A stretch of 39,263 bases of DNA from assembly GCA_016840315.1 (NCBI GenBank), contig JAEOSO010000003.1, forward strand, positions 1-39,263. Direction: 5' to 3'. The translations under genes were made by a program, and so were the position numbers. This document shows positions 9,984 through 37,584 of the stretch, piece by piece. Source of the stretch: Candidatus Borrarchaeota archaeon. GTDB taxonomy: Archaea > Asgardarchaeota > Sifarchaeia > Borrarchaeales > Borrarchaeaceae. The number at the start of each line of letters is the position of its first letter. The stretch's first letter is position 1. The notes beneath the pieces were generated by a model. It saw only the letters and a list, made by a program, of their open reading frames with translations, had not been told where the DNA came from and did not search any database.

Positions 9984-11078
9984 CTAGAATGACCAATAAG
10001 CAGAATGTGTGTCCTTAACTTCTTCTAAAACTTTTTTTGTCTGTGCCAGAATTGCTTTGTCATTGATACACGATGGTGGCTGAATTGGTTCCTCTAGAGG
10101 GAAATTAATGTCTGCCAATCCTAAGATGATTGATGTCCATCCATAAGGAAGTACAATTGGATTATATCCGCTACCGATCAAACTAATTCCATGGGATCCT
10201 GAACTTTGTATAATCTCTCTATGAATCGCCCCCATCCGTCTTAATCCATTCAAAGACACTCCCAGATCTGTTAATTTATCCGAAAAGTGAGGATCCGAGC
10301 CACCATTTCTGATGATTATTTCAGGTTTGAATTCCTCGACTAAGGGTACAACAATTTCCGAATAAACCAGGTCATAAGAAGGATCGTTTCCATACACGGG
10401 CATTGGAATATTTACATTGTAGCCCTCACCTTCCCCCCTACCGACTTCTCGTATATAGCCTGTCCCCGGGTAAAGTGTGGCCGGATTTTGATGAATGGAA
10501 ATGAATAATACTTCTGGCGTTTCATAGAATATCTTGGCGGTTCCATCTCCATAATGAGCGTCTGTATCTAAAATCAAGATCCGCTTTGAGCCTTGTTTTT
10601 TTCTAAGATATTCTGCACAAATAGCAACATCGTTCACGATACAAAACCCTCCTCCTGAATTTGGGAAGGCATGATGCATTCCTCCTCCCATACCCACCGC
10701 AAATGGTGCATTCCCTTCGATTACGTATCTTAGTGCATTTAAAGACGCTCCTACAACGTTCATTGCAGCTTCAAGCATGCCAGGTCGAAGTGGAGTATCT
10801 AATGAGAGGGATTCGTATCGTTTTTCTCCTTGTTTTATTATTTCTAGGTATTCTTCGTTGTGAACGAGCAATAAATCTTCAAAAGAACAAGGTCTCGATT
10901 GGATAATTTTAAGTTGTGGGAGTTCATCTAGACCTAATTGTTGAAACGTGATCAGAAAATCACTAAATCGTTTCCCTCGGAAGGGATGACCTTCTCCAAA
11001 ATCATATGTTATGAGATCTTCTGAGTACATTATCCCAACAACGTTCACCCAATACCCTCCTATCAACGTTACTTTCAA
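9984..11078 (-). CDS. Histone deacetylase / AcuC family protein
   Basis: GMGGGMHHAFPNSGGGFCIVNDVA, ILDTDAHYGDGTAKIFY, VLFISIHQNPATLYPGTG, IRNGGSDPHFSDKLTDLGVS. Confidence 0.93.
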   Translation of the reverse strand: MKVTLIGGYWVNVVGIMYSEDLITYDFGEGHPFRGKRFSDFLITFQQLGLDELPQLKIIQSRPCSFEDLLLVHNEEYLEIIKQGEKRYESLSLDTPLRPGMLEAAMNVVGASLNALRYVIEGNAPFAVGMGGGMHHAFPNSGGGFCIVNDVAICAEYLRKKQGSKRILILDTDAHYGDGTAKIFYETPEVLFISIHQNPATLYPGTGYIREVGRGEGEGYNVNIPMPVYGNDPSYDLVYSEIVVPLVEEFKPEIIIRNGGSDPHFSDKLTDLGVSLNGLRRMGAIHREIIQSSGSHGISLIGSGYNPIVLPYGWTSIILGLADINFPLEEPIQPPSCINDKAILAQTKKVLEEVKDTHSAYWSF

Positions 11079-14297: not shown

Positions 14298-15311
14298 ATG
14301 AGTTCAAATAATGATAGATATCATAGGCAAACCATTATGCCGAACTGGGATCAAAGTAAAATTTCTAAAGCCACAGTATTCCTCGCAGGTATTGGGGCTC
14401 TTGGTTGCGTCGTAACAGAAATCTTGGTTTCGATGGGCATCGGTAAACTAGTTATTGTTGATTTTGATACAGTAGAACTTTCAAATTTGAATCGTCAATG
14501 GCTGTTTCGTGATGAAGATGTTTCGCGGCCAAAAGCCTTAGCTGCAAAAGAACGTCTGAAAGTTCTTAATCCATCTGTTGATGTTATTGTATTTAATCAA
14601 AAGATAGAGGACATTCCCGAAAGTGTTTATTCATCCTGCGATCTAGTGGTTTCTTCGCTCGACACATTTGAAGCGCGTCGCTGGCTGAATTCTATGTGTG
14701 TTCATGAAGGAATACCACTTATCGATGGAGGACTTTATCAATTCTTTGGACACGTCCAAGTAATTATTCCGGGTTCAGATTTAGCTTGCCTTGAGTGCCA
14801 GCCATTGATCCCCGAAAGCCGATTGCAACAGGTATGCACTCTTCCCGGAGAACCGAGGAGGAAGGAAAGAGAGGAAACGCAGAAAGAGGTTTTTCCATCT
14901 GTTGGAACCATTTCTGCTGTAATCGGAGGGATCATGAGTCAAGAAACAGTGAAATTACTAATAGGCTTGGGCACTCCCATTGGATATCTCTTTTACGATG
15001 GTCTTTCCCAAGAATTTACAAAAATTGATCTAAAAAGAAGATTAGATTGTTTTGTTTGTGGTGAAAGGTGGAAACTTGATGAATTGAGATATTTTGCAGA
15101 AGGCGATGAAAAAATAAGCGAATTAAAAAAAAGGCTTAGCCTAATCTACGGCCTCTCCGACCCAACATTGATTGTGGGAACAAAAATAGTTGATGACAAA
15201 ATGACTATTACTGAAGCGGAAATATCGGAGCATGCACCGATCTTCGTTATAGATGCGACTGTGGCGAAACCGATACGAATAAGAGTTGTCTTAACTCCTG
15301 ATTCTGTTTGA
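14298..15311 (+). CDS. Ubiquitin-activating enzyme E1-like / ThiF-MoeB-UBA family with C-terminal extension
   Basis: RYHRQTIMP, GIGALGC nucleotide-binding loop, VDFDTVELSNLNRQWLFRDEDVSRPKA, zinc ligands CLEC and CFVC, VCTLPGEP (predicted catalytic Cys180), and about 80 aa after CFVCG resembling an E1 ubiquitin-fold domain. Confidence 0.96.
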   Translation: MSSNNDRYHRQTIMPNWDQSKISKATVFLAGIGALGCVVTEILVSMGIGKLVIVDFDTVELSNLNRQWLFRDEDVSRPKALAAKERLKVLNPSVDVIVFNQKIEDIPESVYSSCDLVVSSLDTFEARRWLNSMCVHEGIPLIDGGLYQFFGHVQVIIPGSDLACLECQPLIPESRLQQVCTLPGEPRRKEREETQKEVFPSVGTISAVIGGIMSQETVKLLIGLGTPIGYLFYDGLSQEFTKIDLKRRLDCFVCGERWKLDELRYFAEGDEKISELKKRLSLIYGLSDPTLIVGTKIVDDKMTITEAEISEHAPIFVIDATVAKPIRIRVVLTPDSV

Positions 15312-20847: not shown

Positions 20848-22005
20848 TTATCCATTTTCATTTGAAACGTCATTTAGTATCCTATCAATTCTATCAATTA
20901 CGCTCTGCCAACTATATCTCTCTGCGTTTTCTAAACTCTTTTTCACTAATTCATTATAAGTTAGTGAATCATCAATAAGTCGTAACATTTCGTTCTTTAG
21001 GGAAATCTCGTTATTTGGTTCAGCAACAACTCCTCCCAATCCGATTGTTTCAGTAATTGCAGTACAATCTGATCCAATAACTGGCGACCCACAGGCTTGA
21101 GCTTCTAAAATTGGCAACCCAAACCCTTCGTAGAGGCTTGGTATGACAAAAATATCACTTGCTGCATAATAACTAGGTAGTTCTTCCTCTGAGACGCGCC
21201 CTGCAAATATCACTATATCCGCTATGTTCAATCTTTTTGCAAGCATCTCAAGGTTTTTTCTTTCTCTTCCACTCCCTACTATAATTATCTTAATTTTTAC
21301 ATCTTTGCGTTCATTTTTTATTAGTTTTATTGTCTTTAAAAGCCATTGCAATCCTTTATGCGCCTCTAAGCGTCCTACGTAAAGAAGGGTCTTAGCATCT
21401 CCGATGTTTAAGCTATTTCTAACATTTTTTCCAGATATAGTAGGATTAAATCGATTCAAGTCGACGCCATGAGGCACCACTTCACTATTCACACCATATC
21501 GTTGTTTTACTTCGCCTCTGATGTATGAACTATGTGTTATAATCCTATCAAATTCTATAAATGAAAGCCAAAATCTGAATAGAGCATCGTACTTTAATAG
21601 CGATAGTTTATCTAAGCCTCTCTTATAAATAGAAAACGTAAGACCATGATGATCAAAAACACAAGGTTTATTATAAAGACGTTTAATGAGAAAGATCAAC
21701 AAAAAATCGATAAACGAGTGTGTTTCTACACAGAATACATCATATTGCTTTAGAAAACTCAATGCGCTTTTAAGATAAGGGATCAAAGAAATTTCATGAA
21801 TTAGGGGCACCCTTGAAAAAACTCTTGAAAATGAGAATATCTTGTAGTTAGGTAGCTTTCTGATTGCCTGAAAATCGATCCATGGGCCTGTAACGAATAC
21901 AGTCACGTTATGACCTTTTTCATCCAAGCCCCATGCAATTTTCTTGATGTAATCTCCCCTGCTATCCGGTGACTTAAAATAATGGGTTAAGAAGGCTATA
22001 TTCAT
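20848..22005 (-). CDS. GT4-family glycosyltransferase
   Basis: VVPHGVDLNRFNP, LLYVGRLEAHKGLQWLLK, IFVIPSLYEGFGLPILEAQACGSPVIGSD. Confidence 0.95.
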   Translation of the reverse strand: MNIAFLTHYFKSPDSRGDYIKKIAWGLDEKGHNVTVFVTGPWIDFQAIRKLPNYKIFSFSRVFSRVPLIHEISLIPYLKSALSFLKQYDVFCVETHSFIDFLLIFLIKRLYNKPCVFDHHGLTFSIYKRGLDKLSLLKYDALFRFWLSFIEFDRIITHSSYIRGEVKQRYGVNSEVVPHGVDLNRFNPTISGKNVRNSLNIGDAKTLLYVGRLEAHKGLQWLLKTIKLIKNERKDVKIKIIIVGSGRERKNLEMLAKRLNIADIVIFAGRVSEEELPSYYAASDIFVIPSLYEGFGLPILEAQACGSPVIGSDCTAITETIGLGGVVAEPNNEISLKNEMLRLIDDSLTYNELVKKSLENAERYSWQSVIDRIDRILNDVSNENG

Positions 22006-22148
22006 GTATTACACCATTATTTTGTAATTAAAGATACTCCCTTCTTTTTTCTATTCTTTATGTAAGTTCAAAGATAGATTTTACAGGTTTACTAAGATAT
22101 CTTCCATCGCTAAAAAATCTTTAAAAACACTTTAGATATCCAGATGGA

Positions 22149-23486
22149 GTGGTGTACTTAGTGAACAAAGTCCTCCAAACCGTGATTGAATTATTTCAGA
22201 AATATAGGAAAGTCATCATTATTGCTTTTCTGGTTTGCTTTTCTATTTTATGTGTCATTTTTTTACAAGAGTCTCTTTTTTTTATCAATAGATTAGTCAT
22301 AATTCCTGCGGAGTATTATAAAATACACGGACCAATTTACTTGATATCCATTTCAATTCTAGTAATTTCACCTATAATCTATGCAATATTGTATAAATAT
22401 GAATTCAAAATTACTTCAATTCAATTTCCTGAACAAATACGATTAGAATATCTTCTAATTCTACATGCGTTCGTCTCCTTTTTTGCTTTGTGGAGAGGAG
22501 GAGATAAATGGGTTGGTCCAGATCTCCCTACTTATTTCTCAACTGTTAATTTTATCGCGCAAGATTTTAATATCATTATATGGAGTTTTTTTAATAATCC
22601 TGAAGGTCTTGATAAATATTTGATTGGAGAACCTTTGGGATATTTTCTGTTAGCAAGTATAGTCGTCATTGGTTTACCGATTCATTTCATTTCAATTATT
22701 TCCATCATTTTTAGTTTAGTAAACCTGAGCATAACTCATAAATTGTTACTTCAACGCTTTGATGAGGCTATCGCATCAACGGGGGCCTTAGTATATGTTT
22801 TTTCATCTGTAATCCTCAAAATAGAAGCTGATCTTCTAAGAACTCTATTTGCTATTACATTTGGCTTGTTGGCGCTATATTTTTGGGAGCGAAAACGAAT
22901 TCTAACTGCAGTTTTCTTTGCTTTATCCTTGGCAACTCACATCGTGACCGCAAGCCTCTTTTTCATCTCATTGCTTTATCTTGCAAAAGAAGAAAAATGT
23001 CTAAAGAAATTTTCTTTAATTGTAGCGGTTGGATTATTACTTTCATTATTGCCTATTTGGCTAATACGTGATCCATATCTTGTTTATTTTATTTCTATCG
23101 GAAGAATTCAAAGATATCTTGCAGCGGGTACTTTTCTTGGTTCTTCTGATCGTCATCCCGCGTTATATCCACTTTGGACGGATGCTATAATTATACCTAC
23201 TGTTAGAATAATTACTTCAATTGGTCTTTTCCTGATCTATTATGCCTTTAATCACTCCAATGTATCTAAAACACACTGGAGTGTTTGGGTTATAGCAACA
23301 ACTCTCCTTGTTATTATAGGTTATATTTTCCCATATTTTCGCCCGATTCGTTGGGCACTCTATTTAGGGTTCGCGTTAATGTTTCTAATCACACCCTCTC
23401 TAAAACAAGAAGACAAGACTCTATTCTTAGTTTTTCTGATAATTTGCTTTGCTGCATTCGCTGCACATCTTCAAGTAGCGTATTAA
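22149..23486 (+). CDS. Multi-pass membrane protein, possible GT-C-like
   Basis: About ten hydrophobic segments; GPDLPTYFSTVNFIAQDF, LATHIVTASLFFISLLYL. Confidence 0.7.
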   Translation: MVYLVNKVLQTVIELFQKYRKVIIIAFLVCFSILCVIFLQESLFFINRLVIIPAEYYKIHGPIYLISISILVISPIIYAILYKYEFKITSIQFPEQIRLEYLLILHAFVSFFALWRGGDKWVGPDLPTYFSTVNFIAQDFNIIIWSFFNNPEGLDKYLIGEPLGYFLLASIVVIGLPIHFISIISIIFSLVNLSITHKLLLQRFDEAIASTGALVYVFSSVILKIEADLLRTLFAITFGLLALYFWERKRILTAVFFALSLATHIVTASLFFISLLYLAKEEKCLKKFSLIVAVGLLLSLLPIWLIRDPYLVYFISIGRIQRYLAAGTFLGSSDRHPALYPLWTDAIIIPTVRIITSIGLFLIYYAFNHSNVSKTHWSVWVIATTLLVIIGYIFPYFRPIRWALYLGFALMFLITPSLKQEDKTLFLVFLIICFAAFAAHLQVAY

Positions 23487-23596
23487 CAGCGGGATAATTA
23501 GCGAAACGTTCAATTGTCTATCTTACAGATTGTATTATAAGAAGGATTATACGGAATTTATAACTTATAATAAGTTTTCCCTTCATTGACGATTGC

Positions 23597-23630
23597 GACG
23601 GAAAGTCCGCTTCCGAAAGATGGGGTAGTT
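23597..23630 (+). mobile_element. Second candidate orphan IS200/IS605-like right-end stem-loop remnant
   Basis: GACGGAAAGTCCGCTTCCGAAAGATGGGGTAGTT; shares GGAA(A)GTCC..TCC..GGGGTAGTT with 4931-4962. No transposase nearby. Confidence 0.3.
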
Positions 23631-23632
23631 CG

Positions 23633-25000
23633 CTAGTTTTTAATCAGATTATAGATGAGTATATCCGGTCCATTTCGCGTTAGTTCATCTATTTTTCTAG
23701 GGAGCGCATATTCCTGAATATCGGCTAAAGGTGATGTAAGTGCTCCAATAGTCTGTGTAAATATGCTAAATCCAAGAAGTAGGTAAAAGAGTATCCAGAA
23801 ATATTTGTTAGATGAAAATTTTTCTAGAGTTTTTCCTAATGGCAATACAAATGATGGAAGAATATCCGTTAAAAATCGTGGACCAAAAGACAATCCACCA
23901 TGCCACCAAGTATATGTTGAATAGAACGACAAAATTACAAGAAATGAAGCAATAAACAAGATGGCTTCTTCTTTATCTGATTTTAAAAAATAGTAAAACC
24001 CAGGAATTGATAAAACTAAAACGGGGGAATATACGAATAGCCCCCTTCCAGGACTAAAAAGAAGGCCATAAATACCGAACAAGGGATTTGTAGAGAAAGT
24101 GGATGATATGGATGTATAATCATAAATTAGATCATAGTAATATCCAGTAATGAATGGATTATCAAAACATATGTAATTATAGAGGAGGAGTAAAAAGACG
24201 GCAGGTAATGTTCCAAAAATGAAAAAAATGAACGCATTTATCCTTTGAGATTTTAATGCTAGATATATTAAAACAGGTATAACTAAGAAAATATTTGAGA
24301 CTCTTACAGTAGTAGCTATACCTATTACGATTCCTGCCAAAAAAAATCTGTTTGTTTTTTCATATTTTGTGGCTAAAATCACTAGATATAAGCCGAAGAA
24401 GTTTAATAACATTGACAAGGATTGAGCGTAGAAAGTTTTTGCATATACCCATGAGATTGTGCCAAACGCAAGAGTTATTGATGTCAAAAGGGCTGAATTA
24501 TCGCTGAATTCTAGTTCATTTAAGAGCTTGTGAAACAAGGTAATAGTAAAAGCTGCAGAAATTGAACTTAGCATAGCCATTGGGATATATGTAATTGTAA
24601 TGTACGACATGCTTATTCCGAAAAAAATTAGGACGTTCCACATGCCTTTTCCAATTAAGAAGAAGGGTATCGCTATAAACGATAAACCTGGTGGCAATGT
24701 GGAGTAATAATGCCCATCGTAATAACCAACGCCCATTTTAGAATCTAGTTTCCAAGGTGTGTACGTTATCATAGCTTGATCTATGTACAGGCTGTGATAA
24801 TCAGTAATTGATACGGTCAATAACCAATAACTAGATTCATCAGGGGCATAATAATGTGCAATTGAAACAGAATAAACTATGAGTGCTAGAAGAAATAATT
24901 TAAATCTTGTTTTGTTATACCAGACTAAATTTAAAACAAAATCTACAATATCATTCAATTTACTGCGAATTGAGAAGGTTCTCACTCTGGATAACACCAT
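23633..25000 (-). CDS. GT-C-like multi-pass membrane glycosyltransferase-type protein
   Basis: DESSYWLLTVSI early acidic motif, many TM segments; paralogous to the truncated ORF at 1-1284. Confidence 0.8.
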   Translation of the reverse strand: MVLSRVRTFSIRSKLNDIVDFVLNLVWYNKTRFKLFLLALIVYSVSIAHYYAPDESSYWLLTVSITDYHSLYIDQAMITYTPWKLDSKMGVGYYDGHYYSTLPPGLSFIAIPFFLIGKGMWNVLIFFGISMSYITITYIPMAMLSSISAAFTITLFHKLLNELEFSDNSALLTSITLAFGTISWVYAKTFYAQSLSMLLNFFGLYLVILATKYEKTNRFFLAGIVIGIATTVRVSNIFLVIPVLIYLALKSQRINAFIFFIFGTLPAVFLLLLYNYICFDNPFITGYYYDLIYDYTSISSTFSTNPLFGIYGLLFSPGRGLFVYSPVLVLSIPGFYYFLKSDKEEAILFIASFLVILSFYSTYTWWHGGLSFGPRFLTDILPSFVLPLGKTLEKFSSNKYFWILFYLLLGFSIFTQTIGALTSPLADIQEYALPRKIDELTRNGPDILIYNLIKN

Positions 25001-25049
25001 AAATTTCTTATGACTTTGTTCTTTCTATTTTGGTAATAGAGGTAGTTTC

Positions 25050-26816
25050 ATGGTTAAACTCTGGCAATCTACCACATTCAGATTATTGTCACTGTTTTGC
25101 ATTTCTGTTTTTATTAGGGTTATTCCCACTCGAAAATGGGTTTATGGAATGGATGAAGCTATGCACTTAATTGAAATCTCTTCTGTATTGACAAAGGATC
25201 TCATGGGTGCAAAACCTGGTTATATCCTCTTATTAACATTCACCATTTCATTACTTGGTAATCAGAATCCTGTATTCATTCGCCTACTAACGATACTTTT
25301 TGCAAGTTTTCTTGTATTTGTCGGTTATTCCTTCGGTAAGAAACTTGGTGGAAATACCGTTGGAATGCTTACTGCAGTTTTTTTGACTTTTCATCATAAA
25401 ATATTTGACCTTTCCTATTGGATTATGACCGATATACCATTTACATTTCTTTCATTTCTTGCCCTTTATCTTATTTTTAGAAATTTTGAAATGTTAATCA
25501 CTTTAAAAAATAATGTAAAATTATCAGTCCTTGCAGGCATTCTTTGTGGACTTTCTTATCTGGTTCGGCAAGTGGGTATCTATCTTATTCTCTTAGCGAT
25601 TATTTCATATTTCATAATTCGGGGTCCATCTTTTTTAAAGAGATTCAAGAATGGAATGATGTTTTCTTCCGGTCTGGCAGTTATGTTAGCGCCATGGTTT
25701 CTTTGGAATTTTATTCATTATGGCGTCCTTGATACTACCGTGAACTTTGTAGACGTCTCCTTTATTTCGAACCTATGGCCTTTGGTGTTTCTAGGTGTTG
25801 GTTTGTGCGGGGTATTCTTGTTAATTTATAGAAAAATTAATTTCCGATCCATCCATCTTAATTTATCCATAATCTTTGCCACTATTATTTATGCACTAAT
25901 ATTATTCCTTTACTTGAATTTTACAGTGAACAATGCTTTCCTTTCGCGATTAATTTTTTATCTTGTTCAAATCCCTGGAATCGCCTTAGGCTTCCATTTA
26001 ATTAATCCTTATGGAGTGAGTTACCTTGCAATTATTATCTCAATAATCACATTTCCAATATTACTCATTGGACTCGTAAAGGCATATGAAATGAACAAAA
26101 CACTTACAATTATCTCTATAATTTCATCCGGGCTTCTAATTCTATTACTAGGTGGAATTATTTTTCAATCTGAGCGATATATGTTCCCTATAGCACCATT
26201 ATTATCCACTTTTTTGATTGTTGGAGTCCTCAAACTTAAAGATATTTTCCTTTCTCTTATCGTCGGGCCTCTCTTATCTCGGCAAGTGTTTCTTATGAAA
26301 TATTTTTCCGCAGTTCCCTTTTCATCCATGCAAATAGTGACAGTATCCTTTCTCATTATTATTCTAATGCCAAACATTGTAGCAGACGGGTTAGCAAATG
26401 AATATTATTTGTCATTCGATGAGATGGTTGTTACATCACCTCTATGGCGGGAATATATCACAGCTGCCCTTTGGTTCAAGGAAAATAGTAATCAACAAGC
26501 AAGAGTTATGACCTTTAAAAACTTTGATTTTGAGTATTATTCTCATAGAACATGTATCGCACCACATCCGCAAATTTACGATGAGTATTATAAGAACTTT
26601 GGAGAACAAGCATATATCACAGAGTTAATGAAAGAAATGCAGAGCCGCAATATTACACATATCGTTTTTGGTCCTTTTGGATACTCAGATCGTCATCTCT
26701 TCTGGATTTCTGATCCTAATGAAGCATCCTCTTATTTAGATGTGATATATCTTGTGGAGTCGCCCAAAGTAATCATTTACGAAATAAAATGGTCCGAATA
26801 CTCTGTTAATGCATAA
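25050..26816 (+). CDS. PMT/ArnT-like GT-C membrane glycosyltransferase
   Basis: YGMDEAMHLIEISSVL luminal acidic motif, YWIMTDIPFTFLSFLALYL, GLSYLVRQVG, multiple TM helices and soluble C-terminus. Confidence 0.82.
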   Translation: MVKLWQSTTFRLLSLFCISVFIRVIPTRKWVYGMDEAMHLIEISSVLTKDLMGAKPGYILLLTFTISLLGNQNPVFIRLLTILFASFLVFVGYSFGKKLGGNTVGMLTAVFLTFHHKIFDLSYWIMTDIPFTFLSFLALYLIFRNFEMLITLKNNVKLSVLAGILCGLSYLVRQVGIYLILLAIISYFIIRGPSFLKRFKNGMMFSSGLAVMLAPWFLWNFIHYGVLDTTVNFVDVSFISNLWPLVFLGVGLCGVFLLIYRKINFRSIHLNLSIIFATIIYALILFLYLNFTVNNAFLSRLIFYLVQIPGIALGFHLINPYGVSYLAIIISIITFPILLIGLVKAYEMNKTLTIISIISSGLLILLLGGIIFQSERYMFPIAPLLSTFLIVGVLKLKDIFLSLIVGPLLSRQVFLMKYFSAVPFSSMQIVTVSFLIIILMPNIVADGLANEYYLSFDEMVVTSPLWREYITAALWFKENSNQQARVMTFKNFDFEYYSHRTCIAPHPQIYDEYYKNFGEQAYITELMKEMQSRNITHIVFGPFGYSDRHLFWISDPNEASSYLDVIYLVESPKVIIYEIKWSEYSVNA

Positions 26817-26851
26817 CTCGGCTAATTTGGAAAACTCTGGAGGAAAAATGA

Positions 26852-27667
26852 GTGCTCCATGAAATAGCAAAAAGAGCTAAAGGATTTTATGAAGAGCAAC
26901 TCAGTTATTTGACAAAAAAATCAATTCAAGAGTATGAAAAAGAAACACTTGATGGTTTGTGGAATTATTTAAGAATTTTTGATCATACTGAGCGGTTTTT
27001 GTGTATCAAATCACTCCTAACTGACCAGTATAACAAAAATACATCTTTTGTGGACGTAGGATGCGGAAGAGGACCTGTAATTTGGCATCATTTGGGATTA
27101 TTTTCAAATTACTTAACTGTAGTAGGACTTGACATTAATCTTGTTATTCTAAAGTGTAATAAGGAATTATTTAGAAAAAAGTATTCTTCGGTTCCAATTG
27201 ATTTCTGTTTATGTGACGCATGCCACCTGCCTTTGAAGGACAACTCAATTGATGTCTCAGTCTGTACTGAAGTGCTTGAACATCTTCCCGAATATATTTC
27301 TGCAATTAAGGAACTTTCTCGAATATCTAAGAAGCAAATCATACCGTCTATTCCGGATGCTGGTATTTCTGGGATTGATTACGAGTTTACCAAATCGGGC
27401 CATCTGCATGTTATAGAGACTTCACAATTAGTTTCTTTTTTAAGAAGAGAGGGATGGATGAAGCAAAAGCATTATCGAATTGGTGTAATATGGCGATTCA
27501 TTGAGAGAAAATTAATAAGACGAATCGAGAAGAACTGGCATAGTTTGGCAGTACAATTAGCAAAAATTATTATAACATTGGAATTGAAATTTGGCCGAAT
27601 CCTTGTAAATCTTCGACTACCACGACAATTTAGCGGTTTTCACATCTTTAAGTTCATAAAGAATTAA
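26852..27667 (+). CDS. SAM-dependent methyltransferase (class I)
   Basis: FVDVGCGRGPVIW, VVGLDIN, CDACHLPLKDNSIDVSVCTEVLEHLPE. GTG start preceded by GGAGG. Confidence 0.9.
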   Translation: MLHEIAKRAKGFYEEQLSYLTKKSIQEYEKETLDGLWNYLRIFDHTERFLCIKSLLTDQYNKNTSFVDVGCGRGPVIWHHLGLFSNYLTVVGLDINLVILKCNKELFRKKYSSVPIDFCLCDACHLPLKDNSIDVSVCTEVLEHLPEYISAIKELSRISKKQIIPSIPDAGISGIDYEFTKSGHLHVIETSQLVSFLRREGWMKQKHYRIGVIWRFIERKLIRRIEKNWHSLAVQLAKIIITLELKFGRILVNLRLPRQFSGFHIFKFIKN

Positions 27668-27684
27668 GACTGGAGTTCAAACTG

Positions 27685-30015
27685 ATGCGAAGTTCTCTTT
27701 TAGGAATAGGTATCTTAAGTTTTTCACATTTTCTATTGTTTCTTTGGAGATATGAACTTCTGCCTTTTTCTATAGTATGGTGTATTGTTTTAATTTGCTT
27801 AGGTTCTATTATCTTAATAATCGCTGAAATTTTGTGGCAAGACGTTACGAATTTTTTTGGATTGATAACTGCCTCTCATAGATATGCACTAAGCTTCATT
27901 ATTCTCATCGCAATATTAGCTTATCTCACGTTTGTAGGCCCGGGATATATTCATGCAGACGGTATTTCTCATAGTTTTAAAGTATGGTACTTGAGAGAGT
28001 CTTGGCTTAAAGGGAATTTTTATCCTCTTTGGTGTCCCTATTGGTATTCAGGATATCCTTTTTTGGAATTTTATGGACCTCTTTTCTATGTATTTGCCGC
28101 TGTACTTTCCTTGAGTTCAAATTGGATGATTGGTTCAAAATTGGCAATATATCTTGCATGTATAATGTCTTCTTTGGCCATGTATGGCTTAATTTACGTT
28201 GTAACACAAGATAAGTCTGGAAGCATAGTAGGAGGGATAGCATATACCCTTACTTACTATAGATTTCCTTTATTGACTAAATACGGACATCTTGCTAGCA
28301 GTTTAGTGCTACTTTTTATTCCACTCCTATTTTTATTTCTCGAACTGGCCATCAAAAAAGAAAAGCAAGTGTTTGCAATGTTTGCAGGACTTTGCTGGGC
28401 TGGAGTTTTCCTTTCTCATCAAGGAGCTGGATATATGGCTTCTTTGTTAGTATTTTTTTATCTTATTATGTCATGTGCTATAAAATTCAATCTTAAGAAC
28501 ATTACATTGATAGGAACTGTAGGTTTAATCTCTATGGGCGTAGCGTTAGGCATATCTTCCTTCTTTATTATTCCTTACTTTATCAACGGCACAGATGCAA
28601 ATACAGGAATACTTGATCCACATTGGTTAGGATATCCTTTATCCTTACCTTTAATTCTAACAAGAGATTTTATTCATGTTAATCAGCCATTTCCAGTGTA
28701 TGTTGGGAATTCTATATTGATACTCGCTTTCATAGCGGTGATTCTTCGTAGAAATCGTGCTTCCATCATTTATACAGCCTCTCTAGTTTTTTCGTTCTTT
28801 TTGGTTCTTGGTTCAGAACTGTCATTTTATACTAGAATTCCCCTTATTACCAGCCTTGAGTTTCCCTATCGTTTCCTATTATTAGTTTGCTTTGTGGCAT
28901 CAGTATTATCAGGTATTACAGTTGCGTCTCTTAAAGACATTCAAAAACCGATTTCTGGCTATTTAAGAGAATTTATGTCAAATCCTATCCTCAAGAAACG
29001 CATAATAGTTCTATTAATAGTCATTATGATAATTGATTTGTGGCCAGGAACGTTAATTTCTAAAAATAGACCTCAAGAGTGGTTAATTGATGACGACTGG
29101 ATGAAAACATACGAATGGCTTAATCAACAGCCTGGTCCCTATAAAACCCTCAGATTTGGCAACCCCGGTCCAAGTTACGTAGTTTTTGCTTCTGTAGTAG
29201 GAGATGCCCCCGTTTTATATGGTTATTTTAGGCAATCAGCGAATAAAGATTATTTAGAGTTTCTCACTCTATTTACAGAGGAAATTAAATCGTTAGAAAA
29301 TACGCCTCAAAGGGGCCTTCTCAATCCGCTTAAACTTTTAGGAGTCAAATATGTGCCCTTGGATAATACTCTTAGTTATGCTCAATACTTGCATGAATCA
29401 TCACAATTAGAAGTAGTACAGACTTTTGGCAATGTGTCTGTCCTAGAATTTAGTGAATATACCTCTCCAATCATTGTTTCTCAGAATGCTGAAATTCTGT
29501 CGGGGGACAATGAAATCGAGTCTTTTTACAAACATGTTACCGATCCAAACTATGATCCTTCCAAAATGATTTTTCTTAAAGAAAACCAACTTAATAACGC
29601 TAAAGAACTCCCCCTTCAATCGCCTGTAGATTCTATAGGCAGTCCAGACGATTTTAACTATAAAATTTTAAATTTAGATGTCAAAGAAAGCGCCATTTTT
29701 GCAAGAATATATACTTCTGCTCCATCTTTTGTATTTTTCAGTTTCAGTTTCTTTCCTGGCTGGAAAGCCTTTGTTGATGGAAATAAAAGTGAAATTTTAA
29801 TCGCAGAACCCTTTTTCATGTGTTTATACATTGACAAGGGCGGTACGCATACTATATCGCTTAAATATCAACTTAGTACACCTAAAATAATTGGATCAAT
29901 AATTACTTCATTTACTCTTCTGATAGTTTTCTTTGTGATTTTTTGGTCCTATCGACAGGCAATTAGAGAGATAATAGACCAGAGTGCATTCAGAAAATAC
30001 AGAGGACGGAAATGA
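27685..30015 (+). CDS. Large multi-pass membrane protein with C-terminal extracytoplasmic domain (YfhO-like)
   Basis: 776 aa, numerous TM segments; C-terminal SFSFFPGWKAFVDGNKSEILIAEPFFMCLYIDKGGTHTISLKY. Confidence 0.8.
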   Translation: MRSSLLGIGILSFSHFLLFLWRYELLPFSIVWCIVLICLGSIILIIAEILWQDVTNFFGLITASHRYALSFIILIAILAYLTFVGPGYIHADGISHSFKVWYLRESWLKGNFYPLWCPYWYSGYPFLEFYGPLFYVFAAVLSLSSNWMIGSKLAIYLACIMSSLAMYGLIYVVTQDKSGSIVGGIAYTLTYYRFPLLTKYGHLASSLVLLFIPLLFLFLELAIKKEKQVFAMFAGLCWAGVFLSHQGAGYMASLLVFFYLIMSCAIKFNLKNITLIGTVGLISMGVALGISSFFIIPYFINGTDANTGILDPHWLGYPLSLPLILTRDFIHVNQPFPVYVGNSILILAFIAVILRRNRASIIYTASLVFSFFLVLGSELSFYTRIPLITSLEFPYRFLLLVCFVASVLSGITVASLKDIQKPISGYLREFMSNPILKKRIIVLLIVIMIIDLWPGTLISKNRPQEWLIDDDWMKTYEWLNQQPGPYKTLRFGNPGPSYVVFASVVGDAPVLYGYFRQSANKDYLEFLTLFTEEIKSLENTPQRGLLNPLKLLGVKYVPLDNTLSYAQYLHESSQLEVVQTFGNVSVLEFSEYTSPIIVSQNAEILSGDNEIESFYKHVTDPNYDPSKMIFLKENQLNNAKELPLQSPVDSIGSPDDFNYKILNLDVKESAIFARIYTSAPSFVFFSFSFFPGWKAFVDGNKSEILIAEPFFMCLYIDKGGTHTISLKYQLSTPKIIGSIITSFTLLIVFFVIFWSYRQAIREIIDQSAFRKYRGRK

Positions 30016-30016
30016 A

Positions 30017-31108
30017 TTGACTGAGGTTCAAAACAAAGGAAAACTAACTCTCATTACACCAGGTTTCATCTCGCCTTTCAAAGGGATTCATTTAGTCTTC
30101 AGTGCAATTGATGGACTTAATGATGTCCAATATATTGTTGCAGGGTCGGTAAGAAGTGAGCTAAGTGCCCATAAAGCGTACTTGGCTAATATAAAAAAGA
30201 TTGCCCCTTCAAATGTGGAAATAATCGAAAAATTTTTTTCGATTGAAGAATTTCGCGAAATAATTGCATCCAGCGATGTTGTTGTCTTACCCTACTTGGA
30301 TGTATCCCAAAGTGGCTCTGGTATCCTTCATCTATCATTAGGCATTGGAAAACCGATTATTGCTTCAAAAATCGGTGAATTTGTAGAACTTCTAAAAGGA
30401 AACGCGCTATTGGTTGATCCTTTTGACAAGAATGAGTTAAGAATAGCAATCTTAAAAATGAAAGATCAAAAATTGAAACAGTTCTATGAATCTCGTGCAA
30501 GAGAATTAGCTTCTAAAACATCATGGACTAATATCTCTAATGAACATCTCAAAATATATCAGGGTATACTAAAGAAAACGTACAGTCCTATGCGTATTGC
30601 AATTGTTAGTACATTTGGGGAGCGCTGTGGTATAGGTGAATATGCCTCATTTTTAGCAAATGCGGTAGGTCAGCATGATCTTGAAGTTTTGCGAATTAAA
30701 ATACTCAAAGACTGGAAATTTGGCATTACTGTCTTAAAAACTGCAGAAATATTTCGTCCGCATATCGTGCATATACAGTTTGAATACGGTCTGTTCAAAT
30801 GTTTCCCTTTTTTTCAGGTAGGCTCATCTATTTTACTTTTCTATTTATTATCAAAGTTATTCGATACGAAAATAGTAACAACTTTACACACCGTATATAA
30901 CCCACATTATCTATGGCGAAAAAAGTGGAAAAATCTTATTTCAAGAATTACTGGAACGTTTCTGCGAGTATTTTTTATGAAGATAATAACCTCAATATCA
31001 AATCGATTAATAGTTCATACAAAAGAAGCCAAGAAATCACTTGCATACAACAAGAAAGTTTTTGTAGTGCGCCATGGCACTTTGATTGAGAACCCTCAAA
31101 TGGGTTAG
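30017..31108 (+). CDS. GT-B glycosyltransferase with swapped half order (apparent circular permutation or fusion)
   Basis: N-terminal half is a GT4 C-terminal donor domain (TLITPGFISPFKGIHLV...SDVVVLPYLDVSQSGSGILHLSLGIGKPIIAS). C-terminal half is a GT4 N-terminal domain (MRIAIVSTFGERCGIGEYASFLANAV..HIVHIQFEYGLF..LHTVYNP..LIVHTKEAKKSL..VFVVRHGT). TTG at 30017 with upstream GGACGGA preferred over GTG at 29984. Confidence 0.85.
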   Translation: MTEVQNKGKLTLITPGFISPFKGIHLVFSAIDGLNDVQYIVAGSVRSELSAHKAYLANIKKIAPSNVEIIEKFFSIEEFREIIASSDVVVLPYLDVSQSGSGILHLSLGIGKPIIASKIGEFVELLKGNALLVDPFDKNELRIAILKMKDQKLKQFYESRARELASKTSWTNISNEHLKIYQGILKKTYSPMRIAIVSTFGERCGIGEYASFLANAVGQHDLEVLRIKILKDWKFGITVLKTAEIFRPHIVHIQFEYGLFKCFPFFQVGSSILLFYLLSKLFDTKIVTTLHTVYNPHYLWRKKWKNLISRITGTFLRVFFMKIITSISNRLIVHTKEAKKSLAYNKKVFVVRHGTLIENPQMG

Positions 31109-31165
31109 ATCAAAAAGAAATCAAGAATCCTTACTGAAGATAAGGGATTTTGTTAGGTAGTCTTT

Positions 31166-32017
31166 ATGAAAGCCTCAATAATTATTTCAACATACGATAG
31201 GCCAAAAGATGTTATAGACTGTGTCAATAGCATTTTAGATTTTATAGATAACAATTTTGAAATTATCGTTATTGAGGCTTCTCCAGGAACACATACATTT
31301 CACCAGTTGAAAAAACAGTATAAAGGGAATTCACTCGTCAAAATAATTCATTCTAGAAATCCTATTGGACTTTCCAGATCCAGAAATCTCGGAATTCTCC
31401 TCGCTAAGAGAGAAATTGTTGTTTTTATTGATGATGATTGCATTGCATGCCCTGATTGGCTTCAAAATCTTTTAGGTGCATTTAAAGAAAATAACACAGG
31501 TGTCGTAGGTGGAAGAGCTGTGTCCCTATTTATGGGACATAGTGTTCCTAAATGGTTAAACAATCGATTGACTCCAGCATTAGGCATCTCTCATTACTCA
31601 AAAGAAAGACAAGCAGTTTCCTATGTACTTGGATGCAATTTCGCAGTTCGGAGAAATTTATTTGGTAAACTTGGTATGTTTAGAGAAGACTTAGGACGCA
31701 GAGGAAAACTACTCTTATCGAATGAAGAGGTTGAAATTTGTAAACGTTTTAAAGAGGCTGGATATCTTGTCATATATACCCCAAAAGCAATAGTAAAGCA
31801 CAAAATATATCCTTCGAGGTTGAAAAGGTGGTACTTCTTCAACCGATTCTTTTATGGAGGCTTAAGCGAGGGCATTATGTACAATTTTGGAATTAAAAAT
31901 CTGTTTTTTACAGTAAAAGAATTCTTAAAGACTCTTGTATTTTTCTTTAGAAACCCAAATATGTTCTCTTTGTGCTCAATACTTGAAAAAGTAGGTTTAA
32001 TCGTAAGTATCATCTAA
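31166..32017 (+). CDS. GT2-family (GT-A) glycosyltransferase
   Basis: KASIIISTYDRPKDVIDCVNSI, GLSRSRNLGILLAKREIVVFIDDDCIACPDWL, VVGGRAV. Confidence 0.95.
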   Translation: MKASIIISTYDRPKDVIDCVNSILDFIDNNFEIIVIEASPGTHTFHQLKKQYKGNSLVKIIHSRNPIGLSRSRNLGILLAKREIVVFIDDDCIACPDWLQNLLGAFKENNTGVVGGRAVSLFMGHSVPKWLNNRLTPALGISHYSKERQAVSYVLGCNFAVRRNLFGKLGMFREDLGRRGKLLLSNEEVEICKRFKEAGYLVIYTPKAIVKHKIYPSRLKRWYFFNRFFYGGLSEGIMYNFGIKNLFFTVKEFLKTLVFFFRNPNMFSLCSILEKVGLIVSII

Positions 32018-32033
32018 CAAGTTTTCCCTTATC

Positions 32034-33281
32034 TCATTTTAATAGATTTTCGTAAATTTCTAGAATCTTTTGAGCAATTAAACTCCAGCTGTATTCTTTT
32101 ATCACTTTTCGTTTTCCATTTTTACACATTTGAGCATACATTTCCTCATCACGTGCAAGACTCAATATGCGATCTTTTAGAGCCGAAATATCTCCAAATT
32201 TTACTAAAAACCCGTCACTGCCATCATTTATTATTTCTCGCATAGCAGGTATATCGGCACCAATTACAGGCTTACCTGCAGCCCATGCCTCAAGATAAAC
32301 AATACCTAGTGACTCTTCTATAGAAGGCATTGCCATTAAGTCTGAGCCATTAAGAGCATCGATTTTATCTTTTTCAGAGAGTACTCCCAAGTAGCACGCA
32401 ACTGAAGTATTCTTACTCAAAGACGATAGAAATGCAGTAACTTGATTTGTTCCATAGCTTGTACTTCGCGGCCCAGCAAAAAATAACCTAATGTTGTCAT
32501 TGGTTTTTATTGCTTCTTGTACGGCTTTATAGAGATGGATTATTCCTTTTCTTGGATCTAAGCGACCCAGAAACAATATCACGAACGCATCTTCATCGAG
32601 ACCATATTTTTCTCTAAATTCTTTTCTGTTTCCCCTTTCATATTTTTTTACATCGACCCCAAATCCTACTTGAGTGATCTGGTCTGCTGGAACACCTATT
32701 TTTCTATAAAATCGTGCTTCTATTGTAGTGTGTGCAAGGATCTCCGAATGTTTAAGGACACTATGAAATCGGAGGTGTGTATATGCAGGATTATGAAGGT
32801 GAAAGCCTGGTGTTATAACCAAGGGAATTCTGTGTGCTTTTGATGCGATATATGCGTAAAATGTATGGCTACCCAAGATGTTTACTACGTGAATTATTTC
32901 AAAATTCGCCCCGTAGGTCAGCAATTTCTTAAATAATTTCGGAGAAAATGGGTTTTGGATACATCCGCCAATTACATTGCAAATTGGTTTTCTCTGGAAA
33001 TTATCTTTGTTCAAAAGATGCCGAAATGGATACAAAACTTTGTCGATTCCATTAAAGTAAAAAAGTGGATAATAAAACACAGGTACGCCGTTTCTGTATT
33101 TAATCTCTTCATGGATTATATTATTTTTCTTCAGATGCATTGTAGGAAGATCTAAAGCATTGGATGTGAATACTACAGTCTTATTACCTCGTTTTTTCAT
33201 TTCTTTTGCTACTACCTCTGTATAAACCTCACTTCCACCTATATGTGGATAAAATAGGGGCGTAACGTATATTATGTTCAT
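32034..33281 (-). CDS. GT4-family glycosyltransferase
   Basis: YPHIGGSEVYTEVVAKEM, FVILFLGRLDPRKGIIHLYKAV, LMAMPSIEESLGIVYLEAWAAGKPVIGADI. Confidence 0.95.
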   Translation of the reverse strand: MNIIYVTPLFYPHIGGSEVYTEVVAKEMKKRGNKTVVFTSNALDLPTMHLKKNNIIHEEIKYRNGVPVFYYPLFYFNGIDKVLYPFRHLLNKDNFQRKPICNVIGGCIQNPFSPKLFKKLLTYGANFEIIHVVNILGSHTFYAYIASKAHRIPLVITPGFHLHNPAYTHLRFHSVLKHSEILAHTTIEARFYRKIGVPADQITQVGFGVDVKKYERGNRKEFREKYGLDEDAFVILFLGRLDPRKGIIHLYKAVQEAIKTNDNIRLFFAGPRSTSYGTNQVTAFLSSLSKNTSVACYLGVLSEKDKIDALNGSDLMAMPSIEESLGIVYLEAWAAGKPVIGADIPAMREIINDGSDGFLVKFGDISALKDRILSLARDEEMYAQMCKNGKRKVIKEYSWSLIAQKILEIYENLLK

Positions 33282-33377
33282 ACTGAATCAATTTTTGTTA
33301 AGTAGTTTTTATTTAAAAGATTTCCATAAGAAAAATAAGGCGATTAAATCCAAATACTAAGTTGTCTCAACTTATGG

Positions 33378-34604
33378 ATGGCTAAAAAAGTGAAGATCTG
33401 CTATTTAGCGTTCTCAGAAAAATTTCTTGCACCTGATGGAGGTTTTCGTCATATTTATAGCGTTTGTTCTCAATTAACAAAACAAGGTGATGAAATTCAT
33501 TTATTTACTAAAGGTTTAGGAAAAAATATTCAAAATAAAAGAGTATTGTCGATTAGTGATGGCAGATTTTATGTATATCAAGTAGATTTTCCAATTTCTC
33601 CCTTTTTTATTGGTATTCTCTCTTTTCTTAAAGGATTTCCTAGACTTGTTATCACTTTAATTAAAACAATAAAGCAAGAAAAAATAGAAATTATCCACCA
33701 ACGATTTTGGATTCCAATTGGAGCAGGAATATTTGTTGCAAAGCTGTTAGGCATCCCATATATTCTAGATGTAAACGCACCTTTTGTTGAAGAGGTTTTC
33801 TACAAAAAAAGAGTTAGCTGGCTATATAAACTTTGGAGAAAAGCCGTATTCAAGGCGGCAGATGCTATTATCACTACCACTACTGTTTTGCGTAATATAG
33901 TCGCAAGAGACACAAAAAAGGAAAAAATCTTGGTTGTTAGACAAGGTGTAGATCTAAATACTTTCAAATCAAATCCGTCTCTCGAAAAAAAATTAAAAGA
34001 GAAATACAAACTTGACTCTAAGTTAATAATTCTCTTTGTAGGAGCCTTTCGACCTTGGCAAGGAGTTGCAGATCTGATTAAAACAAGTCCTTATGTTTTA
34101 GAACAATTTCCAAATGCCCGATTTCTTTTTGTTGGTGGAACTAAAAAAGGCATTGCCTTCGCTAAGCAACTTGGTACATCCCTGAAAATTGATTCCTCAC
34201 TGGTTTTTACTGGACCTGTGAATTTTTCCGAGATTCCATCATACATAGCACTCTCTGATGTTACAGTTGCTCCATTTAATTTAGAGGATTATCCTCCGTT
34301 AAAAGAACTGGGTTTTTGGTGGGGACCTATAAAAATTTTCGAATATGCGTATCTTGGAAAACCTATTGTTACAATAGGCGCTGGCGAACTTCCTTTTTAT
34401 GTGCCTAATAATGTTGCTGGGCTGCTTTATAGATCAGGAAATGTTCAAGAACTTGCTGAAAAAATTAAAATGCTTTTAAGGGATGTAAATTTAAGAAACG
34501 TCTTAGGAACTACGGGAAAACAGCGTGTTGAAAGAAACTTTACATGGCAACGCGCCGCACAACTAACTCGAACCCTCTACCACACTTTACTTCACAAAAA
34601 GTAG
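33378..34604 (+). CDS. GT4-family glycosyltransferase
   Basis: VRQGVDLNTFKSN, LIILFVGAFRPWQGVADLIK, VTVAPFNLEDYPPLKELGFWWGPIKIFEYAYLGKPIVT. Confidence 0.94.
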   Translation: MAKKVKICYLAFSEKFLAPDGGFRHIYSVCSQLTKQGDEIHLFTKGLGKNIQNKRVLSISDGRFYVYQVDFPISPFFIGILSFLKGFPRLVITLIKTIKQEKIEIIHQRFWIPIGAGIFVAKLLGIPYILDVNAPFVEEVFYKKRVSWLYKLWRKAVFKAADAIITTTTVLRNIVARDTKKEKILVVRQGVDLNTFKSNPSLEKKLKEKYKLDSKLIILFVGAFRPWQGVADLIKTSPYVLEQFPNARFLFVGGTKKGIAFAKQLGTSLKIDSSLVFTGPVNFSEIPSYIALSDVTVAPFNLEDYPPLKELGFWWGPIKIFEYAYLGKPIVTIGAGELPFYVPNNVAGLLYRSGNVQELAEKIKMLLRDVNLRNVLGTTGKQRVERNFTWQRAAQLTRTLYHTLLHKK

Positions 34605-34634
34605 TTATCCGAAAACTCAATTGTTGAGATGTCT

Positions 34635-36173
34635 CTATTCGTTGGTCGCTTTGTATCCTAATATCCTTAAAATTAGATTTGTATAAGGGATATTGCTTTC
34701 AATTAGCATCTTATAATCTATCTCTTCCAAGGCGTTAAGATATCTGATACCAACAAAGAACACGCCTCCTGCAATTGCAAAGAAGAGCAGTAACAGGGGA
34801 ATGGTAGTGATTGCTACCACGTATTTCAAAGAATAAACAGCCAACCCCGTTATAGATCCTGCTAGAAGATATTTTCCAAGAACACCGGCGGGAAAATCCA
34901 AGTGTATATGTTTTCGAAGCATCGAATACTCAAAAACAAGTACAATGTACCATGAAACTTGTGTTGCAATGATTGCACCAATAATCCCATATGGTGGTAT
35001 CAAAAGCAAATATAATAGTATCTTAACCACTGAAATAATCTTACCGTAAATCAAAATCTCAGTTTTTTCCATAGTAACTGCTACCATTCCAATAGCGCCC
35101 TGCCATTTGTTCGAAGCAATTAGGAAAAAACTTAATTGAAATGCGAGTAGAGCTGGCAGATATTTCGGATCATAAATGACTGATATAATGTCTTGTGCAA
35201 CGATTATGCCAACAATTCCCGTCGGGATTGCAGCGATCATTGTAAACTTCACATTTTGTCTAAATACTTGATTTAAGGCTTTAGTGCCGCCTGATGTGTA
35301 TGCTTCAGCCGCCGCCGCTACGATTAGACCTACAATCATTGCAGGAACAAAATGAATGAAAGTATATGCAACGCCATAGGCGAATCTAAAGTAGCCTACT
35401 TCCTCAATACTCCTAAAGATTGTCAAAAAGTAGATCGCCGAAACATAAGAAAGTATAAAATCTCCTAAGGCTATGACAAACATTGATAGACTGTATCTCC
35501 AAAAACGATATCCAAGAATTCTCTCTGTGAAAGTAGTTAATCGTTCTTGGACATATTCTCTACGGATTAATGCATAACTTCCTTTAACGAGACATGCGGC
35601 ATAGGTCATGACTACTCCTAAAATGACGATTTCTGCGAGTCCTAACCTTAAAATCAAAATAACACTGAGTCCCGAAAGTGTTAGAGCCGAAACAAAAATA
35701 TTTGCACTGTTCAGAAATTTCTGCTTGAAATTGGCTATTAATACGGTATCCAAAGCACCGACTATTGTTGCTGGAACTAGGGATAATGAATAAACTCGAA
35801 TTAAACCTATAGCAGTAGGGATGTTAAGGAATATCGCAATATTCTCTGCAAAAAGAAGGAGTATCACAGTTACAACTCCCGCAAGTCCTACCTGAATAAG
35901 TGCTACTTGACGAAACATTCGCCTCTCTTTTTCTCTTTCTTTCTTTACACGTAGTTCTGGTAAGAATCTATTTAGGGCAGAACTCATGCCCAGCGAAATA
36001 AAAGGAGATGCAAGCCCAGCTATGGCAAATAAAATTGCGTAGATTCCGTATTCCAAAGGTGTTAGAAGTCTAATAATAAGGACGCTTGTAACAATAGCAA
36101 TCATTGAGCTGCCTATTTGTCCTAAAAAATTGAATATAATGCCTTTTATCGATCTTTCTACCAGTCCTGCCAT
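34635..36173 (-). CDS. Wzx/MATE-like polysaccharide flippase
   Basis: FNFLGQIGSSMIAIVTSVLIIRLLTPLEYGIYAILFAIAGLASPFISLGMSSALNRFLPE, many TM helices, YDPKYLPALLAFQLSFFLIASN. Confidence 0.93.
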   Translation of the reverse strand: MAGLVERSIKGIIFNFLGQIGSSMIAIVTSVLIIRLLTPLEYGIYAILFAIAGLASPFISLGMSSALNRFLPELRVKKEREKERRMFRQVALIQVGLAGVVTVILLLFAENIAIFLNIPTAIGLIRVYSLSLVPATIVGALDTVLIANFKQKFLNSANIFVSALTLSGLSVILILRLGLAEIVILGVVMTYAACLVKGSYALIRREYVQERLTTFTERILGYRFWRYSLSMFVIALGDFILSYVSAIYFLTIFRSIEEVGYFRFAYGVAYTFIHFVPAMIVGLIVAAAAEAYTSGGTKALNQVFRQNVKFTMIAAIPTGIVGIIVAQDIISVIYDPKYLPALLAFQLSFFLIASNKWQGAIGMVAVTMEKTEILIYGKIISVVKILLYLLLIPPYGIIGAIIATQVSWYIVLVFEYSMLRKHIHLDFPAGVLGKYLLAGSITGLAVYSLKYVVAITTIPLLLLFFAIAGGVFFVGIRYLNALEEIDYKMLIESNIPYTNLILRILGYKATNE

Positions 36174-36357
36174 TTAGAGCGCGTCCTTTGATCGTACTAA
36201 CTTCTTTTTTTTTGTAAAAGACATGATGACTGTTATGTTTAACTTGTGTTTTCATAAACTCATAATTACGAAATGCGTTATCACCGTTTTTCAGGACTAA
36301 ATTTAACAAAAAAATAAAAAAGTTGTGCCTTCTTCAGCATAATCACTAGGCAATTAG

Positions 36358-37584
36358 GTGTATTGTGTGAGAATTGCATTAGTAGCGGACTCCTATTATC
36401 CGTATATTGGAGGAATTCAACGTTATATAGATGAGTTAGCTAATATATTTTCTGAGCGGCATGAAGTTCACATTATTACCCAATATGTTCCAGGCTATTC
36501 TGAGACCGAACTTCGCAACAACATCACCATTCATCGCATAAAACCTCTAGTTAATGCAGAAACTGCACCACTTAGTGTTTTAAGAAACTATCCTCAACTT
36601 TCAGAATACTTTCGAGAACTTAACTTAGATATTATTCACACAAATAATCATTGTTCTTTAAGCGTGATAAAAGCCGCAAAGGCCTCTAAGATTCCAGTTA
36701 TTTACTGTGTGCATGGATATGGACTTTTATGTCCTAAACATTCCTTTATAAGAAATAATGGCACACTTTGTGACGGTTTTAGTAGTTTTGCTTGTTTTCG
36801 TTTTTGCAATTATAGAACTATCCATGATTTACTCATTGTTAACGATTATAGAAAGCGAAACAAATTGATCAAGTCTTCAGACTACATAATTGCCCCTTCT
36901 AAACAAGTTTCTCAATTGTTTGAAGCTGAGAAAAACAATTTATCAGTAATCTACCATGGAGTAAATACAAAACGGTTTTTTCCTGTTCGAAGTGAGCCTT
37001 TTAAACAGAAATATGATTTAGATGAATATATCTTGGTTGTTGCTCGACTGATTCCAGAAAAAGGCGTTGAATATGCAATTCGAGCTATTAAAGAAATGAA
37101 TTCAAAGTTGGTAATCATTGGTGACTATGATCTCTTTCAAAGAACACAAAGGAATCCCTATGGAAACAAATTATTTCGTTTAGTAAAATCTTTAGGAATA
37201 CAACACAAAGTCTTATTTTTACAATTTCAGGATCATTGTGAGTTAATTAAAGCCCTTTCTGGTGCCTCGGCTACTTTGATTCCATCAGTGTGGCGTGAGC
37301 CATTTGGTTTAATTGCGTTAGAATCTCTTGCTTGTGAGACACCTGCAATCATTACACAAGTCTGTGGGGTTGCAGAAACCTTTGATGATACTGTTGGACG
37401 AATTATCAAGGAAGGCGCCATAGAAAGCATCGTTGATGCATTCCATAAAGTCTTTCCAAATTCCAAAGAAATGGGCAAAAGGGGGAGAATTAAAGTAGAA
37501 AACGAATTAACATGGAATCACGCCGCAGTTAAAACCCTTTCACTCTATGAAAGAGCGTCAAATCAAAATTCCTATAAGGCATAA
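36358..37584 (+). CDS. GT4-family glycosyltransferase
   Basis: ADSYYPYIGGIQRYIDELANIF, YHGVNTKRFFPV, ILVVARLIPEKGVEYAIRAI, ATLIPSVWREPFGLIALESLACETPAIIT. Start GTG or nearby. Confidence 0.95.
   Translation: MYCVRIALVADSYYPYIGGIQRYIDELANIFSERHEVHIITQYVPGYSETELRNNITIHRIKPLVNAETAPLSVLRNYPQLSEYFRELNLDIIHTNNHCSLSVIKAAKASKIPVIYCVHGYGLLCPKHSFIRNNGTLCDGFSSFACFRFCNYRTIHDLLIVNDYRKRNKLIKSSDYIIAPSKQVSQLFEAEKNNLSVIYHGVNTKRFFPVRSEPFKQKYDLDEYILVVARLIPEKGVEYAIRAIKEMNSKLVIIGDYDLFQRTQRNPYGNKLFRLVKSLGIQHKVLFLQFQDHCELIKALSGASATLIPSVWREPFGLIALESLACETPAIITQVCGVAETFDDTVGRIIKEGAIESIVDAFHKVFPNSKEMGKRGRIKVENELTWNHAAVKTLSLYERASNQNSYKA

Follow-up and report, generated by a model that had tools for sequence, protein, structure and literature searches.

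The window analysed here is a 39,263-nucleotide stretch of DNA (contig JAEOSO010000003.1) from the Asgard archaeal genus Candidatus Borrarchaeum, which belongs to the class Borrarchaeia. At positions 30017 to 31108 of its plus strand lies a single ORF for a GT4-type glycosyltransferase of 363 amino acids, and the same ORF is found in the sequences L006, L007 and L008. GT4 is among the largest glycosyltransferase families. Translation could also begin at GTG 29984, but TTG 30017 is the likelier start because it is aligned with the ATG of two more distant homologues. Immediately upstream is a gene (27685 to 30015, plus strand) for a large YfhO/PTPS_related-like membrane protein, here called M; downstream is a gene (31166 to 32017, plus strand) for an AglG-like GT2 glycosyltransferase, whose match is below the model cut-off. 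Both genes adjoin the GT4 gene in all four Borrarchaeum genomes examined. In G001 and G003, M runs a few bases into the start of the GT4 gene, and in G001 the gap to the following gene is only about 14 bases. M itself is tandemly duplicated in G001 (L052, 6739-9096 and 9200-11566), but the window, G003 and G002 have one copy at this position.

The C-domain of a GT4 precedes the N-domain in one ORF

The original prediction read this ORF as a GT4 C-terminal half followed by an N-terminal half, and proposed the order of HMM domains as a check. Both the order of Pfam domains and the alignments with relatives bear this out. In the longer ORF counted from GTG 29984, PF13692 (2.3e-9) and PF00534 (3.8e-6), both above the cut-off, matched residues 17-165, and PF13439 matched residues 241-355 with a value of 0.005, below the cut-off. 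The PF13439 match was stronger in the homologues (5.6e-5 in L008 of G001 and 3.4e-4 in L006) and was again below the cut-off. Despite the weak Pfam score, the identity of the second half as a GT4 N-domain is backed by clear direct alignment to the N-halves of relatives. The two halves of the unrotated protein matched the same canonical Asgard GT4s with their order swapped; on L058, for example, the C-half aligned to residues 194-379 and the N-half to residues 1-113. In all four Borrarchaeum genomes the GT4 C-domain comes first and the N-domain second, the reverse of the usual N-C order.

It had also been proposed that no N-half precedes the ORF and no C-half follows it, and neither was found. 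The gene upstream encodes the membrane protein M and ends at 30015; in none of the plus frames do the 57 bases before the next gene encode a C-half. A missing half masked by stop-codon recoding was ruled out, in that readthrough of the TAG meets another TAG after only 15 codons; recoding is also contradicted by the homologues in G001 and G003, which stop at TAA. Likewise, we ruled out two genes read as one: because the methionine of MRIAIV, at the start of the second half, is serine in G001 and G003 and the frame is open across the junction, the ORF encodes one protein rather than two.

Rotation restores full-length alignment with canonical GT4s

When the protein was rotated to the N-C order, it aligned end to end with single canonical Asgard GT4s over about 350-400 columns, with scores of 111 bits for L058 (E 2e-31), 110 for L059, 109 for L060 and 106 for L055. 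For L058, the 111 bits of the rotated protein compare with 90 and 34 bits for the separate halves. Local alignment scores rose from 187-223 for the unrotated to 272-311 for the rotated protein. The best cut fell at residues 189-192 with five of the six references; with the sixth, cuts scoring no more than 2 units below the best spanned 186-225.

After rotation, the identity to the canonical proteins of four other Asgard genomes (L058 of G036, L059 of G057, L055 of G032 and L056 of G025) was about 25-28% over the same length. These proteins have the N-domain first, whereas the permuted protein has the C-domain first. In two of the genomes, G032 and G025, which belong to another Asgard family, such a GT4 carries, fused to its C-terminal end, a PTPS_related-like membrane domain with homology to M (L055, 8512-11673; L056, 7514-10687); in contrast, the permuted gene is unfused, its partner M being a separate gene and the two standing in the opposite order.

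The canonical relatives share most of their invariant residues with the permuted protein, which retains 30 of the 36 that are invariant in six of them. The N-half has 13 of its 14 and the C-half 17 of its 22; G205, H252, Q254, H291, K22, S101-G102 and E124 are among those retained. The EX7E motif is absent from the C-domain, where the corresponding residues are Q98-x7-L106. Its absence might suggest that the protein is not an active transferase but a permuted GT-B scaffold retained for a role in binding or in partnership with M. However, L058, L059, L055 and L056 in canonical order also lack EX7E, so its loss is not a sign of decay, and the retention of most invariant residues likewise argues against this reading; we consider an inactive scaffold quite improbable.

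The two halves could also come from different parents of the same group, the C-half of one GT4 being fused to the N-half of another; such a chimera would still work as a GT-B enzyme. Trees of the separate halves do not settle whether parentage is shared, since the AU test rejected none of the placements tried, and the top relatives by BLAST bits differ (L009 and L027 for the C-half, L012 and L011 for the N-half). By path length in the trees, however, both halves are nearest to the f13 fusions of GT4 with M (L112 for the C-half, L114 for the N-half), and rotated scores to single proteins exceed those of either half alone. A chimeric origin is therefore unlikely, though it deserves some weight, and permutation of a single parent is the reading that we prefer.

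The cut lies in the interdomain hinge

Based on the Pfam matches, the rotated alignment and the strands and helices of the predicted structure, the C-half (30044 to 30571, plus strand) corresponds to the parental donor-binding C-domain together with the final helix. As indicated by the alignment and the model, it is followed by a new linker of about 6 codons ending in SP (30572 to 30589, plus strand), which connects what were the C- and N-termini of the parent. The N-half (30590 to 31081, plus strand), defined by the weak PF13439 match and by alignment to the N-halves of relatives, is the parental N-domain from MRIAIVST to VVRHGT. The last stretch, LIENPQMG (31082 to 31105, plus strand), is by alignment a new C-terminal tail and a remnant of the parental interdomain hinge. 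The new termini thus lie within this hinge: the chain starts just before KLTLITPGF, which is the start of the parental C-domain, and ends eight residues past VVRHGT, the end of the parental N-domain.

An AlphaFold model of the permuted protein had a mean pLDDT of 86.5 and a pTM of 0.85, close to the values for the canonical control L074 (87.3 and 0.86). In the input alignment, canonical relatives were entered only as separate N- and C-fragments; AlphaFold may nevertheless have imposed a remembered GT-B packing on the model. The halves are thus predicted to fold together, in one confident model with the shape of a GT-B enzyme; the refuting outcome named in the original prediction, that they cannot pack, was not obtained. 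In Foldseek searches against the PDB, the permuted model matched GT-B enzymes (glycogen synthase, GlgM, VldE, sucrose-phosphate synthase), for the most part over about 160-190 columns with TMq of 0.33-0.42, whereas the matches of L074 to MshA, BshA, GlgM and HepE extended in most cases over 395-430 columns with TMq of about 0.7-0.77. Because Foldseek aligns in sequence order, half-length matches are expected for a permuted GT-B. Against viral models, the search gave only matches to one half, or low-TM matches to larger proteins.

In the model, the parental C-terminal helix comprises residues 170-185 and leads through a loop of about 7 residues to the parental first strand, 193-198. In the canonical GT-B enzyme B736L, the last helix crosses back and spans both domains (PMC9614988). 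Because this helix reaches the N-domain, the parental termini should be close to each other and the permutation sterically reasonable. The permuted enzyme would have one covalent connection between its domains, versus two in a normal GT-B.

That the only remaining connection is a new one raises the question of whether the short loop can reach within one chain; if it cannot, the C-half might pair with the N-half of another chain in a domain-swapped dimer. The confident monomer model argues against such a dimer, as does the expectation that the parental last helix already ends at the N-domain (PMC9614988), and we regard a swapped dimer as rather doubtful compared with a monomeric permuted enzyme.

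The permuted gene is conserved under purifying selection

The original prediction had allowed for a misassembly, or for two decaying remnants of tandem GT4 genes, and the contig of the window does come from a fragmented MAG. However, the C-N ORF is intact in all four Borrarchaeum genomes, with the junction identical in position. Protein identity to the copy in the window is 88% in G002 and 72% in both G003 and G001, so that the four genomes represent two lineages about 72% identical to each other, and the copy in G001 is embedded in a 1.3-Mb contig. An identical junction in four genomes at 72-88% protein identity contradicts misassembly, which we consider ruled out.

Using the Nei-Gojobori method, we obtained whole-gene dN/dS values of about 0.14-0.17 when the two main lineages were compared, and 0.22 for the window against G002. 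Calculated separately, the values for the halves were alike (0.12-0.23). The low dN/dS in each half shows that both are maintained by purifying selection; together with the intact ORFs, it makes artefact or decay extremely improbable.

Occurrence and possible origin

A search for the same architecture in other genomes, as had been proposed, was positive in the three other Borrarchaeum genomes and negative elsewhere among 228 Asgard genomes. Full-length profile matches were confined to the four Borrarchaeum genomes, with no further permuted copy among the 228; in the other matching Asgard genomes the matches were to the C-half, and the ORFs retrieved from those were of normal order. In the window's own genome, the N-domain precedes the C-domain in 16 of the 16 other ORFs with both Pfam halves, as it does in the canonical relatives examined; only the permuted ORF is C-N. 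Employing two short peptide patterns, we scanned 85,000 species genomes; among the matches listed, only Candidatus Borrarchaeum yapensis (JAEOSF010000012.1) was found. The permuted profile had no relative in viral contigs, no relative of the protein was found in phages, and a plasmid search gave a single weak match to one half.

In the literature searched, chiefly journals open without subscription, we found no permuted GT4 and no permuted GT-B enzyme beyond the inverted Alg13-Alg14 fusions. These fusions, in Entamoeba histolytica and Dictyostelium discoideum, are GT-B enzymes of C-N order that arose through splitting and re-fusion (PMC8993221). Like the permuted GT4, they have the C-half preceding the N-half in a single chain (PMC8993221), and they are the nearest precedent, although in a different glycosyltransferase family: they are eukaryotic, of the MurG/Alg13-14 type and derived from split genes, whereas the permuted protein is an archaeal GT4 with no split ancestor seen. 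It had no Pfam match to the Glyco_tran_28 C-domain or the Alg14 domain at E up to 1 and matched GT4 domains instead. Natural circular permutation is also found in the GH70 glucansucrases and MalS (PMC11046441, PMC10223318); those carbohydrate-active enzymes are (beta/alpha)8-barrels (GH70, GH13), whereas the permuted protein is a GT-B.

The permuted gene could possibly have originated by tandem duplication followed by loss of the outer halves. By analogy with the published route of Alg13-Alg14, splitting and inverted re-fusion would be an equal rival. Duplication has been observed at this locus, namely of M in G001.

Gene neighborhood and possible role

The permuted gene lies within a surface-glycan cluster (20848-37584) that encodes five GT4s including the permuted one, a GT2, several GT-C-like proteins, an EpsG-like protein, a methyltransferase and a Wzx-type flippase. 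It is flanked by the genes for a YfhO-like GT-C protein and an AglG-like GT2; together with the flippase and the EpsG-like protein of the cluster, this setting points to a polyprenol-linked surface glycan as the probable acceptor. Our best guess is that the protein carries out a cytosolic GT4 step toward a lipid-linked surface glycan, with M as its partner.

In G002, an extra ORF of 441 amino acids (L054, 5720-7042, minus strand) with no match in the window lies between two GT4 genes. The GT4 adjoining it is 51% identical to that of the window, and its neighbors are 86-91% identical, which suggests a local replacement at that GT4. Elsewhere in the window, 14298-15311 and 9984-11078 encode a ThiF/E1-like protein and a histone-deacetylase-like protein.

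Discussion

Alignment after rotation, conservation in four genomes and the predicted structure all agree with the original prediction, and this ORF is best read as encoding a circularly permuted GT-B. It is probably a functional, naturally permuted glycosyltransferase of the GT4 kind, with predicted activity. Its parent would be a GT4 of the 'CGIxxY ... HxQHE ... SASGxLHL' group, and the permutation would predate the divergence of the four Borrarchaeum genomes. The chain starts at what in normal relatives is the interdomain hinge, runs through the donor-binding C-domain, the final helix and the short loop to reach the first N-domain strand, and stops where the hinge would begin. The two Rossmann domains would pack as in a normal GT-B enzyme, with the usual cleft between them; there the first half would bind the NDP-sugar and the sugar would be transferred to an acceptor, probably the polyprenol-linked glycan, on the second half. 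The old C-terminal crossing helix would be the sole covalent link between the domains. With somewhat more reserve, we favor the view that this is the first natural active GT-B permutant of the GT4 kind, in which the hinge is cut and both the coupling and the movement of the domains depend solely on the crossing helix.

Annotation based on domain order may label such genes as partial. Efforts to engineer permuted glycosyltransferases can start from this permutant. Its conservation in nature suggests that the interdomain hinge is dispensable, and it would provide a direct handle on which connection makes the GT-B cleft open and close.
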